64,000 nt of DNA from Ramlibacter pinisoli (lineage in GTDB: Bacteria; Pseudomonadota; Gammaproteobacteria; Burkholderiales; Burkholderiaceae_C), in assembly GCF_009758015.1 (NCBI RefSeq), contig NZ_WSEL01000003.1, positions 372,001 to 436,000 of the forward strand, written 5' to 3'. The position numbers were made by a program, and so were the translations under genes. Below, in pieces: positions 18,368-29,330 of this stretch. How positions within the stretch are numbered: position 1 is the first letter of the stretch; each line of letters opens with the position of its first letter. Under the pieces are notes generated by a model that had not been told where the DNA came from, did no database searches, and worked only from the letters and a program-made list of their open reading frames with translations.

Positions 18368-19471
18368 ATGCCCCCGGCCCTGCCTTACCAGACGGAACCG
18401 CCCTTCACCCACGGCCAGGCACCCGCCACCGGCGTGCTCCTGTGCAACCTGGGAACGCCCGACGAACCCACCCCCGACGCCGTGCGGCGCTACCTGCGCG
18501 AGTTCCTCGGCGACCCGCGCGTCGTCGAGATTCCGCGTGCCGTCTGGCTGCCGCTGCTGCACGGCGTCATCCTGCCGCTGCGCTCGGCGAAATCGGCCGC
18601 CAAGTACGCGACCATCTGGACCCCCGAAGGCTCCCCGCTGAAGGTCTGGACCGAGCGGCAGGCCAAGCTGCTGCAAGGCTGGCTGGGCGAGGCCGGGCAC
18701 CGGGTCCTGGTGCGGTACGCCATGCGCTACGGCACGCCGTCGATCGCGTCGCAACTCGACGCCCTCAAGGCTGCCGGCGCCACCCGCATCCTGGTTTTGA
18801 GCGCGTACCCGCAGTACTCGGGCACCACCACGGCCAGCGTGGTCGACGAGGTGGCCAGCTGGAGCCGGCGCATCCGCCACGTGCCCGAACTGCGGTTCGT
18901 CAACCGTTACCACGACGACCGCGGCTACATCGAGGCCCTCGCCCGCCGCATCGAGACCCATTGGCGCCAGCACGGACGGCCCGACCACCTGGTCCTGAGC
19001 TTCCACGGCGTGCCCGAACGCACCCTGAAGCTGGGCGATCCCTACCACTGCGAATGCCAGGCGACCGGCCGCCTGCTGGCGGCACGCCTCGGCCTGGCGC
19101 CCGGCAGCTGGACGCTGTCTTTCCAGTCGCGCTTCGGCAAGGCCAAGTGGCTGGAGCCCTACACCCAGCCCACCCTGGTGGCGCTGGCACGCCGCGGCGT
19201 TGCCCGCGTCGACGTCGCCTGCCCGGGCTTCACCAGCGATTGCCTCGAGACCCTGGAGGAGATCGCGCAGGAAGGCCGCGATGCCTTCCTGGCGGCCGGG
19301 GGCAAGGCCTTCCACTTCATTCCCTGCCTGAATGCCGACGCGGCCTGGATCCGTGCGCTCGGCGAAATCACGGCGCGTCACCTGGCCGGCTGGCCGACGC
19401 AGCTGCCGGCCGACCCGCAAGCCCTGGCCGCCGCGCGCGACCGCGCCCTGGCTACGGGTGCAGCGCGCTGA
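18368..19471 (+). CDS. hemH: Ferrochelatase, last step of protoheme synthesis
   Basis: The 367-residue protein has the ferrochelatase core. The catalytic His is in [20 protein letters not shown] (about 210-229), and the C-terminal signature [14 protein letters not shown] includes the acidic metal-channel residues. It inserts Fe2+ into protoporphyrin IX at the cytoplasmic membrane. The start ATG at 18368 follows GAGAAT by only 5 bp, with no evident Shine-Dalgarno. The 3' end overlaps the convergent alpha/beta-hydrolase gene by 20 bp. Confidence 0.97.
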
Positions 19472-20360
19472 CGGGCCGGCGGCCGGCAGCCGCCTGCTCG
19501 TGGCCGTCGATGAAGCCCGCCACCAGGTCCAGCTGGTCCGGCACGTTCAGCGCCGGCGCATGGCCGCAGCCGGGAATCTCGACCACGCGGAACAGTCCCC
19601 GTGAACCGGGACCGCGGCGCTGCATCTCCTCCACCGCGTCGGGCAGCACCAGGTCGGAGTCGGCCCCGCGCAGGCACAGCACCGGGATGTCGATCGCGTC
19701 CCAGTGCTCCCACAGCTCGTAGTCGTTCGGGTGGTCGATGAACTGGCGCACCATGGCGGGGTCGTAGTGCGGCGTCACGCGGCCGTCGGGTAGCCGCCGG
19801 GTGGAGGTCTCGGTCAGCCGCCGCCACTGCGCATCGCTCAGCCAGCCGAAGGGCCGGTAGACCTGCCGGTAGAACGCCTCCAGTTCCGAGACCGTGGCGA
19901 AGGCCGGCGGACTGCCGGCGTAGGCCTTGATCCGCTCCAGCGCCGGGGCTGCCAGCCGCGGGGCGTTGTCGTTCAGCACCAGGCTGCGGATGCGGCCTTT
20001 CAGCTGCGGCTGCGCCAGGCCGGCCGCGCAGACGGTGCCGATGGCGCCGCCCATCGACGTGCCGACCCAGTGCGCCTGCTCGATGCCCAGGCGGTCCATC
20101 AGCTCGGCCGCGAGCTGCGCGTAGAACGCCAGCGTGTATTCGGCGCCGGGGTCGGCGCTCCACTGCGACAGGCCGCGGCCCAGCGTGTCGGGACAGACCA
20201 CGCGCCAGCGGCCGGCCAGATGCTGAGCCAGTTCATCCATGTCGCGGCCGGTGCGGGCCAGCCCGTGCCAGGCGATCACCGTTCCCTGGTGCTGGCTGCC
20301 CCATTCGGTGTAGTGGATCTCGCGGCCGGCACAGGTCACGTAGTTGGATGTGAAGTGCAT
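19452..20360 (-). CDS. Alpha/beta-fold hydrolase, last gene of the 3HB/Liv unit
   Basis: The 302-residue protein starts at ATG 20360, chosen for the AGGAG site 5 bp upstream. It has the oxyanion-hole segment [10 protein letters not shown] (about 32-41), the nucleophile elbow [11 protein letters not shown] (Ser near 103) and the catalytic His in GCGHAP near the end. An acidic residue after [10 protein letters not shown] completes the triad. It is a soluble esterase/lipase-like enzyme without a signal peptide. The gene is 34 bp downstream of the 3HB-oligomer hydrolase on the same strand, suggesting an intracellular ester hydrolase in the same pathway; this is inference. It overlaps hemH convergently. 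Confidence 0.85.
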
Positions 20361-20394
20361 GGTGCTCCTGTCTCCGGGCCGCGGCACCGGCCCC

Positions 20395-27775: not shown

Positions 27776-27827
27776 GCCTGGCAAGTGCTTGATTTGTAAG
27801 GCTTCTCCGACGACTGATCCGCCGGGT

Positions 27828-27883
27828 GCCTGAAGATCAGCCAGGTCGAGTGTATGGTTTTCAGGCAACTGCCTGGAGATCAG
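27828..27883. promoter_or_regulatory. Candidate activator-binding repeats upstream of the sigma-54 promoter
   Basis: The 13-mer GCCTG[AG]AGATCAG occurs twice in direct orientation, at 27828-27840 and 27871-27883, a spacing of 43 bp (about four helical turns). The second copy overlaps the perfect dyad CAGGCAACTGCCTG (27862-27875) inside the last codons of the activator gene. Distance to the -24/-12 box is 53-108 bp, the usual range for enhancer sites of sigma-54 activators. Confidence 0.5.
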
Positions 27884-29330
27884 ACATTCTCTCGTAGAGC
27901 TTGGCGCGCGAGATGCCGAGCATCCGGGCCGCCGCGACCTTGTTGCCGCTGGTGGCCAGCAGTGCCGCCGCGATCGCGGCCCGTTCCACCTCGGCCACCT
28001 GCTCGGACAGCGGCCGCAAACGGTCGGACGGTGCCGCCGGTGCCGGGCCGGACGTGGCGGCCGGTGCGACCTGCTCCACCCCGGACTCCCGCAGGACCTG
28101 CTCCAGGTGCTGCGGCTCGATGCGCGGCGAGTCGCTGCGCATCACGGCCTGTTCGACCACGTTGCGCAGCTCGCGGATGTTGCCCCGCCACGCCTGCGCG
28201 GCCAGCAGCGCCGTGGCGTCGGCACTGAGCTCCGGCGGCGGCGTCCCGTTGCGCAGGGCCATGTCCTCGCCCAGCACTTCCAGCAGCGCCGGGATGTCGG
28301 CACGCCGCTCGCGCAGCGGCGGCACCCGGATGGGCAGGACGTTGAGGCGGTAGTAGAGGTCCTCGCGGAACCGCCCGGCCCGCACCAGCGCGCCGAGGTC
28401 GCGCGAGGTGGCGGCGATCACGCGCGCATCGAACGGCACGACCTTGTTCGAGCCGAGCGGCTCGATCTCGCCCTCCTGCAGCGCCCGCAGCAGCTTGGCC
28501 TGCAGCGACAAGGGCATGTCGCCGATCTCGTCGAGGAACAGCGTGCCGCCGTCGGCCAGCTTGAACTTGCCGTCGCGGCCCTTGCGGTCGGCACCCGTGT
28601 AGGCCCCGGGCGCCACCCCGAAGAATTCGGCTTCCAGCAGCGTGTCGGGCACGGCGGCGATGTTGACGCTGACCAGCGGGCCGTCCGCGCGCGCCGACGC
28701 CGCGTGGATGGCATGCGCCAGCAGCTCCTTGCCGGTGCCGGTCTCGCCCAGCAGCAGCACCGGGCTGGACGACGCGGCCGCGCGCCGCGCCTGCCGCTTG
28801 ACCTCGACCGCCGGCGCGCTGGAGCCGACGAAGCTGGCCAGCGTGTACTTGGTGCGGCGCTGGCTGGCCAGTTCGCGCCGGGCATCGTCGAGGTCGCGCT
28901 GCAGGTTCGCGAACTTGTGGATCAGTGGCTGCAGCGTCGTCTCGGGGTGGTCGAACAGCACGATGCCCAGGGCGCCGATCACCTGGCCGGCCGCGTCGCG
29001 CAGCGGGATGCGGCTGACCACGAAGGTGCCGGCCTTGTTCGACAGCAGGTCGATGAGGATGGGCTTGCCGGTGCGGATGACCCGGTCCATCTGCGTGTTC
29101 TGCACCACCTCGGCCACCGGATGGCCGACGAAGTCTTCCACCCGCGGGTAGCCCAGGGCCGGCAGGAACCGCTTGTACTGCTCGTTGATCCAGACCACCC
29201 GGCCGTCGCGGTCGACCAGCAGCATGCCCTCGCTCGCATTGGCGAACAGGTCGAACATCGACCGTGCGGCCAGCTCCAGGATGCTCTGGCCGTCGCGCGG
29301 CAGGCTGTCGTCTTGCGGCATGGGCCGCAT
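27861..29330 (-). CDS. Sigma-54-dependent transcriptional activator with PAS sensor
   Basis: The 489-residue protein has three parts: an N-terminal PAS domain (about 20-130, with LLVDRDGRVVWINEQYKRFL), the AAA+ sigma-54 interaction domain (about 165-390) and a C-terminal Fis-type helix-turn-helix (NKVAAARMLGISRAKLYERM). Walker A is GETGTGKE and Walker B GGTLFLDEIGDMP. The sigma-54 contact loop reads GAYTGA rather than the usual GAFTGA. It probably binds sites just downstream of its own gene and activates the Liv/3HB operon in response to a ligand sensed by PAS. A second ATG at 29321 is an equally possible start. Confidence 0.92.
   Translation of the reverse strand: MRPMPQDDSLPRDGQSILELAARSMFDLFANASEGMLLVDRDGRVVWINEQYKRFLPALGYPRVEDFVGHPVAEVVQNTQMDRVIRTGKPILIDLLSNKAGTFVVSRIPLRDAAGQVIGALGIVLFDHPETTLQPLIHKFANLQRDLDDARRELASQRRTKYTLASFVGSSAPAVEVKRQARRAAASSSPVLLLGETGTGKELLAHAIHAASARADGPLVSVNIAAVPDTLLEAEFFGVAPGAYTGADRKGRDGKFKLADGGTLFLDEIGDMPLSLQAKLLRALQEGEIEPLGSNKVVPFDARVIAATSRDLGALVRAGRFREDLYYRLNVLPIRVPPLRERRADIPALLEVLGEDMALRNGTPPPELSADATALLAAQAWRGNIRELRNVVEQAVMRSDSPRIEPQHLEQVLRESGVEQVAPAATSGPAPAAPSDRLRPLSEQVAEVERAAIAAALLATSGNKVAAARMLGISRAKLYERMSDLQAVA

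Follow-up and report, generated by a model that had tools for sequence, protein, structure and literature searches.

What does an importer of the branched-chain amino-acid (Liv) type carry when its last gene runs into that of an enzyme which splits oligomers of 3-hydroxybutyrate (3HB)? The question is raised by an operon on the minus strand of a 64,000-nucleotide stretch of Ramlibacter pinisoli (hereafter the window, whose numbering is used throughout), in which a PAS/sigma-54 activator gene and a -24/-12 promoter element are followed by the genes for a periplasmic binding protein, LivG, LivF, LivH, LivM, a 3HB-oligomer hydrolase (3HBOH) and an alpha/beta hydrolase. Poly(3-hydroxybutyrate) (PHB) is a common storage polymer and a bioplastic, and we consider the locus to be, probably, a sigma-54-switched operon for the utilisation of PHB and 3HB oligomers, whose Liv-type ABC importer would take up the hydrolysis products. 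PHB-derived substrates are suggested because relatives carry a type-2 PHB depolymerase in this operon, the operon of Mariluticola includes a 3HB dehydrogenase, and 3HBOH also pairs with a second Liv set. The original prediction, made from the window alone, had read the locus as a scavenging unit, a reading that these genes of relatives support.

Layout of the operon and the hydrolase at its end

The features of the operon are as follows.

27861..29330, minus strand: sigma-54-dependent activator with PAS, AAA+ and Fis-type helix-turn-helix (HTH) domains (Sigma54_activat 221 bits, PAS_4, HTH_8)
27870..27886, minus strand: candidate activator-site palindrome 1, TGTCTGATCTCCAGGCA, 1 mismatch to TGNCTGANNNTCAGNCA, in the last codons of the activator gene
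27851..27867, minus strand: candidate activator-site palindrome 2, TGCCTGAAAACCATACA, 2 mismatches to TGNCTGANNNTCAGNCA
27827..27843, minus strand: candidate activator-site palindrome 3, TGGCTGATCTTCAGGCA, the sole exact match in the 5.5-Mb genome
27761..27775, minus strand: sigma-54-type -24/-12 element, TGGCACGGCGCGTGC, from the sequence and conserved upstream of orthologues
26521..27717, minus strand: periplasmic binding protein of the first Liv set (Liv1), Peripla_BP_6 (PF13458), 566 bits to PDB 3n0x
25589..26359, minus strand: LivG-type ATPase (ABC_tran, BCA_ABC_TP_C)
24867..25592, minus strand: LivF-type ATPase, 4-bp overlap with livG
23890..24870, minus strand: LivH-type permease (BPD_transp_2, PF02653), GTG start, 4-bp overlap with livF
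22643..23797, minus strand: LivM-type permease (BPD_transp_2)
22664..22669, minus strand: likely ribosome-binding site AAGGAG of the 3HBOH gene, inside livM
20395..22659, minus strand: 3HBOH with a lipoprotein-type signal (PF10605), 17-bp overlap with livM
19452..20360, minus strand: alpha/beta hydrolase, no evident signal peptide, the enzyme that accompanies the transporter most regularly across the family

Gene calls and domain matches bear out the gene order first proposed for 19452..29330, including the 17-bp overlap, in which the hydrolase ATG lies at 22659 and the livM stop ends at 22643. There is no gene fusion at the protein level in the operon. The importer is complete, with one Peripla_BP_6 protein, two ABC ATPases and two BPD_transp_2 permeases in a single gene run, and thus shares its five-part architecture and Pfam domains with the Liv/HAAT system LivJKHMGF of Escherichia coli; it differs from that system by the added polyester-oligomer hydrolase and sigma-54 activator and by the replacement of the residues at the amino group (see below). 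In relatives, genes were called with a codon-usage script, so that starts are approximate; the script misplaced the start of the window's own 3HBOH, for which the ATG at 22659 was used.

The 3HBOH matches PF10605 over its full length (926 bits, cut-off 27; profile positions 14-687 of 688) and by family belongs with the known 3HB-oligomer hydrolases, from which it differs by its lipoprotein-type signal and by its overlap with, and position after, an ABC importer. It had been described as exported, a term that can be specified further, since the protein begins with MLKTADPGRTSPRRFLPLCAIAAAAALAG-C (LAG-C), a lipoprotein-type start as judged by eye rather than by a signal-peptide program, and 'exported' here most likely means a membrane-anchored lipoprotein. 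Of 149 distinct 3HBOHs, 120 show a loose lipobox pattern within their first 80 residues, a count that misses some because of the script's start calls (the set comprised 161 rows before those sharing the same last 400 residues were dropped). Candidate Ser, Asp and His residues, with putative catalytic roles, are invariant in five aligned sequences. Elsewhere in the window's genome, a 1410-residue open frame has a weak partial PF10605 match of 30.7 bits (G000:C9:2106515-2106862, L002).

Recurrence of the operon and of PHB enzymes among relatives

Adjacency of hydrolase and Liv set across relatives had been set beforehand as the test of the proposed coupling. Among 200 evenly drawn genomes of the family, 3HBOH (E <=1e-50) was found in 60 and the binding protein (E <=1e-80) in 109, with both in 43. 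In 33 of these 43 genomes, from 28 genera, 3HBOH adjoins Liv1 in the same order, 3.6-5.8 kb downstream of the nearer binding-protein gene and on the same strand; in one of the 33 (G325) it is a remnant with a partial profile match only. The ten unlinked genomes include one (G434, L128) in which LivF, LivH, LivM, 3HBOH and the alpha/beta hydrolase stand at a contig start, so that its status may reflect an assembly break. Seventeen family genomes hold 3HBOH without the binding protein. In a sample of 300 genomes of the order, 3HBOH was found in 26, the binding protein in 24 and both in 5, linked in 3. Because the two genes adjoin in 28 genera of the family, their neighbourhood exceeds chance, and an accident of one genome was rejected as an explanation. 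Linked examples chosen by similarity rather than by even sampling come from Ramlibacter, Caenimonas, Acidovorax, Delftia, Rhodoferax, Rivibacter, Rhizobacter, Ideonella and Curvibacter. A similarity search listed R. monticola first, at 77%, which places the host near Ramlibacter. Two type strains, Rivibacter subsaxonicus DSM 19570 (L223) and Caenimonas koreensis DSM 17982 (L209), have the complete operon.

The place of 3HBOH within the operon was followed in 100 fetched LivM loci, no two of them identical and with 3HBOH overrepresented among them. LivM is followed by 3HBOH in 60 loci, by the alpha/beta hydrolase in 25, by an enoyl-CoA hydratase in 4, by a thiolase in 2, by a protein resembling carboxylesterases in 2 and by another product or none in 7; in 43 loci the alpha/beta hydrolase stands immediately behind 3HBOH. 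The core of the operon in the family would seem to consist of activator, Liv set and alpha/beta hydrolase, with 3HBOH an accessory inserted at a fixed place. Divergent 3HBOHs occupy this place: in two loci (L165, L166) the Liv subunits are 82-88% identical to those of the window and the 3HBOH only 50%; in another (L059) the values are 79-86% and 67%. On a FastTree phylogeny of the 149 3HBOHs, which cannot separate gains from losses, the state 'beside Liv1' requires at least 12 changes and 'beside Liv2' (the second Liv set described below) 10 when 18 rows with flanks shorter than 4 kb are omitted; with all rows the counts are 17 and 10, and well-supported branches account for 11 and 7 of these as unavoidable. 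Two further proteins were seen around this position. A second, different Liv-type binding protein lies between 3HBOH and the alpha/beta hydrolase in L156 (12929-14083) and at 15 of the 60 Liv1-linked 3HBOHs; it scores 266 bits to PDB 3lop and is found close to Liv2 as well (L255, L240). A carboxylesterase-family protein with a lipoprotein-type start occupies the slot of 3HBOH after LivM in L186, from the window's own genus (12758-14476, by Pfam), and in L196 (6737-8476, by similarity).

A second enzyme of PHB degradation has its own fixed place. Between the binding-protein gene and livG, 29 of the 100 loci encode an exported protein some 500 residues long. Two examples scored on NF050059 (cut-off 280) reached 376 (L205) and 373 bits (L208), which places them in the type-2 PHB depolymerase family, and the L205 protein scores 322 bits to the type-2 extracellular PHB depolymerase PDB 2d80. 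A more distant protein of this kind, next to the second Liv set in L086, reached 386 bits. Relatives of the L205 protein were found in 38 of the 200 family genomes, 29 with the binding protein and 9 without it, and in 27 of the 29, from 24 genera, the depolymerase lies directly downstream of the binding-protein gene at a distance of 58-236 bp (G424 has two tandem binding proteins, the nearer about 160 bp from the depolymerase). The operon thus includes a type-2 depolymerase in 27 of the 109 family genomes with the binding protein, and 15 genomes carry depolymerase and 3HBOH together in it. The window has none, and its genome gave no type-2 match at E 1e-60 (7 of 19 candidates scored); another contig carries all three type-1 polyhydroxyalkanoate depolymerase matches and the one 3HB dehydrogenase that exceed their cut-offs. 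PF10503 was rejected as a depolymerase marker, being too broad with matches in 82 of the 200 genomes.

In another class, an orthologous operon on a plasmid of the alphaproteobacterium Mariluticola halotolerans has, in this order, a sigma-54 regulator (47% identity), a 3HB dehydrogenase (370 bits on TIGR01963, cut-off 307), the binding protein (65%), LivG, LivF, LivH, LivM and the alpha/beta hydrolase (51%); five of the six alphaproteobacterial plasmid matches were read.

Another Liv set (Liv2) lies within 7.5 kb of 14 of the 149 distinct 3HBOHs and, in the even family sample, beside 3HBOH in 5 of 60 genomes (L126, L130, L133, L134, L139). Its LivM is about 33% identical to that of the window, and its binding protein (435 bits to PDB 3i09) is encoded between the ATPases and the permeases. 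In Aquabacterium humicola (L240), a thiolase, an acyl-CoA ligase, a 3HB-dehydrogenase-like gene, 3HBOH and Liv2 stand together, the dehydrogenase scoring 258.3 bits on NF009093 (cut-off 258) and 257 on TIGR01963 (cut-off 307); a Limnohabitans metagenome-assembled genome (MAG; L236) has the same kinds of genes by similarity. In Herbaspirillum sp. ST 5-3 (L255), an activator homologue (55% identity) comes before a dehydrogenase best matched by FabG models, 3HBOH, Liv2, one more binding protein and an AMP ligase. Liv1 and Liv2 themselves adjoin each other in L192, L198 and Hoeflea. Since a first look gave 6 to 61 binding-protein candidates per hit genome, adjacency to some Liv set is not rare, and the weight of the argument rests on the recurrence of the same two sets. 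A short PAS-LuxR protein also occurs with Liv2 and 3HBOH (L240, 12200-12796, by Pfam; L126, L130, L133 and L134 by similarity), and because of this companion the Liv2 version may use another switch.

Other neighbours of the operon and of 3HBOH were noted. Just upstream of the operon, the window encodes a TctCBA-type transporter and a divergent two-component system (29349-34659), and of 101 other fetched stretches that encode the Liv1 binding protein, 19 also have a TctA with 60% identity or more. In L136 and in L229 (an Alicycliphilus MAG), 3HBOH directly follows TctA, with no activator or Liv set nearby. On Microvirga plasmids (L293, 7764-9812; L294, 7718-9770), it lies behind AtuA-like and Tct-type receptor genes, and in Microvirga sp. 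VF16 it is annotated as two overlapping genes. Downstream of the operon, the window carries the hopanoid genes hpnC, hpnD and hpnE and the ferrochelatase gene hemH, over cut-off (14678-19471), an arrangement kept in several relatives.

The activator and its candidate sites

The predicted GG-N10-GC promoter, TGGCACGGCGCGTGC at 27775-27761, was evaluated against its orthologues. A bare -24/-12 pattern is not rare (4 in the window against 1.6 expected), so the evidence for the promoter is its conservation in relatives. A site scoring at least as high as that of the window (10 of 12 positions of a sigma-54 consensus) precedes 79 of 103 orthologous binding-protein genes, a few of them duplicates. 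Among 1615 control regions, taken from in front of unlabelled genes of these loci, 33 have such a site. The loci lacking it include those of other families without the activator. An activator homologue stands directly before the binding-protein gene in 54 of 100 fetched Liv1 loci.

Three palindromes precede the promoter in the window, at a distance of 51-111 bp. The derived consensus, TGTCTGA-N3-TCAGACA, found further upstream than the sigma-54 site, is matched at no fewer than 11 of its 14 bases in 63 of 96 regions and in 21 of 1607 controls; the first count is partly circular because the motif was derived from 79 of the same upstream regions. Independent of this are the control regions, the single occurrence of the exact form TGNCTGANNNTCAGNCA in the whole genome and the sites of L211, L141 and L255. 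In Malikia granosa (L211) and L141, sites with 12-13 of 14 bases precede 3HBOH, with the activator present and the Liv set absent nearby, and in L255 a 12/14 site precedes the dehydrogenase gene. Two loci (L127, L269) reach only 10/14, and no such palindrome was found in Mariluticola, L083 or L085. Since similar palindromes precede 3HBOH or dehydrogenase operons elsewhere, the activator is probably a local regulator of such operons, and we infer that it binds the palindromes.

The signs of sigma-54 dependence are present together: a conserved -24/-12 element, the gene of an AAA+ activator and conserved upstream palindromes. The activator shares with NtrC-type proteins its PAS, AAA+ and Fis-HTH domains, the GAYTGA motif, which is present in its translation, and palindromes upstream of the promoter. 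It scores well under the cut-off of the NCBIfam models among the matches listed (25 of 31), including AtoC, PrpR and NorR. The depolymerase of relatives, the palindromes, the lipoprotein signal and the accessory standing of 3HBOH go beyond the original prediction.

The ligand and the readings of the locus

The importer could be an ordinary branched-chain amino-acid system with an unrelated esterase gene behind it, as its family annotation (PF13458, PF02653, BCA_ABC_TP_C) would suggest; we rejected this reading as highly improbable. The branched-chain binding-protein model NF011933 gives 63 bits against a cut-off of 477, the binding protein is 19-20% identical to E. coli LivJ/LivK, and the linkage to PHB enzymes is conserved. 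It scores 566 bits to PDB 3n0x and 540 bits to 3nnd; a literature search on these two entries and on 3i09 and 3n0w brought up no relevant paper. In an alignment to LivJ (numbering counted by hand), Thr102 and Glu226 are replaced by Ala131 and Ile260, and the carboxylate-side Ser79 is kept. We take Thr102 and Glu226 to hold the alpha-amino group and Ser79 to lie on the carboxylate side; a literature check of these roles gave nothing usable. The segments EPAVAD and GGNILP are invariant in 27 aligned sequences, that of the window included. In the accessible part of a study of Rhodopseudomonas palustris, very few of 22 such binding proteins were shifted with Leu, Ile, Val or short amides, and the proteins bound other acids and amino acids (PMC3223731). 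Together, the replaced amino-group residues and these mostly unshifted proteins argue against a ligand class of branched-chain amino acids only. The gene context would then point to 3HB as a ligand.

In the proposed mechanism, the PAS activator would sense a cytoplasmic product or the state of the cell, bind the palindromes and drive the sigma-54 polymerase. A secreted depolymerase, encoded in the operon of many relatives and perhaps elsewhere in the window's genome, would open the polymer, and the 3HBOH lipoprotein would cleave 3HB oligomers outside the inner membrane. The Liv-type binding protein would capture the carboxylate product (3HB and/or short oligomers) and the ABC complex bring it in, after which the cytoplasmic alpha/beta hydrolase would cut residual esters and a 3HB dehydrogenase encoded elsewhere would form acetoacetate.

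Several observations weigh against this account. Loss of the amino-group contacts does not make a 3HB site. In the family, 66 of the 109 genomes with the binding protein lack 3HBOH, and 75 of the 149 distinct 3HBOHs have neither Liv set within 7.5 kb (18 of these with flanks shorter than 4 kb). Of the 21 loci in one scan (L288-L292, L295-L310; 16 with 1.5-kb flanks only), a single one has a 3HB dehydrogenase. Four of these genomes, from outside the order, were also viewed over longer stretches (L317-L320) and gave no dehydrogenase, depolymerase or 3HBOH match, which slightly lowered our confidence in the PHB/3HB reading and slightly raised that in a broader range of acids. Nor can family labels fix where an enzyme acts: in the portions available of the cited sources, Pseudomonas sp. 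A1 has an extracellular 3HB-oligomer hydrolase and Ralstonia eutropha intracellular ones (PMC2864759 for the latter), and two R. eutropha PhaZ enzymes are labelled 'extracellular type 1' in a table of PHB-homeostasis enzymes (PMC3430594).

The main rival is a broader range of short acids: Liv1 would import a wider set of acids or a different one (lactones, aromatic acids, and fatty acids that are short or branched), and PHB enzymes would have been recruited in some genera since the importer also accepts 3HB. We regard this as unlikely, though some orthologous loci carry fatty-acid-type genes, so that a wider ligand class is possible. By coordinates, 64 of the 109 operons have neither 3HBOH nor a type-2 depolymerase. 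Orthologous Liv sets stand elsewhere beside enoyl-CoA hydratase, acyl-CoA ligase, MaoC or TonB-receptor genes: hydratase and acyl-CoA ligase in L060, L061 and L075, hydratase only in L066, ligase/hydratase in L319, and thiolase and ligase with a nearby TonB receptor in L071 and L072. The plasmid copies of Hoeflea, Nitratireductor, Mameliella and Roseinatronobacter have enoyl-CoA hydratase, AMP ligase and MaoC instead of the dehydrogenase. Against a broad acid importer speak the two PHB-degrading enzyme families at fixed places in the same operon of the family, and the linkage of nearly all type-2 depolymerases (27 of 29) when both genes are present. As a separate observation, in five loci of other families (L071, L072, L076-L078) the neighbours of the orthologous Liv set are genes for a TonB-dependent receptor, for thiolase/AMP ligase, or for PEP-CTERM and PA-domain proteins, contexts unlike PHB use.

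Within the PHB/3HB reading, the intact oligomer might be imported and cleaved mainly by the cytoplasmic alpha/beta hydrolase, with 3HBOH only trimming long oligomers, a version that we consider plausible but less likely than not. The alpha/beta hydrolase follows LivM or 3HBOH in most of the 100 loci (25 and a further 43, as given above), is kept where 3HBOH is absent and belongs to the Mariluticola operon; L317 and L320 gave no match to it at E 1e-12. Family matches give no prediction of its substrate, which, for the most constant enzyme of the operon, also tells against PHB use as a whole. A bolder form of the same reading, plausible to us but on balance doubtful, would make the locus a polyester counterpart of polysaccharide utilisation loci, with a secreted depolymerase, a lipoprotein oligomerase, an ABC system importing short 3HB oligoesters and a cytoplasmic oligoester hydrolase under one dedicated sigma-54 switch, assembled at least twice with two different Liv-type importers.

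Two known systems stand close to it in proposed substrate. The hbtABC system of Ruegeria pomeroyi, which the available part of a 2023 paper describes as the sole one confirmed for 3HB uptake in bacteria (PMC10130141), shares the substrate proposed here and is set apart as a three-gene system of another name. HbuT of Bacillus subtilis likewise has 3HB as its proposed substrate; the portion seen of a review presumes it there and states that the 3HB transporter of soil bacteria is not known (PMC8000602). The accessible parts of PMC12542648, PMC7830162, PMC2842291, PMC2864759 and PMC3430594 make no mention of a Liv-type transporter beside 3HBOH, and a literature search, from whose coverage subscription journals were mostly absent, found no description of the coupling, so an earlier report may exist.

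The operon is a specific and widespread candidate for the uptake of PHB fragments, and it comes with a regulator and likely regulatory sites. Its importer illustrates how a branched-chain amino-acid label can mask a different ligand. If the proposed function is true, the operon would help to answer how bacteria take up PHB fragments, a step that is poorly known; should the polyester counterpart of polysaccharide utilisation loci also prove true, it would hold the first ABC importer known for polyester fragments.

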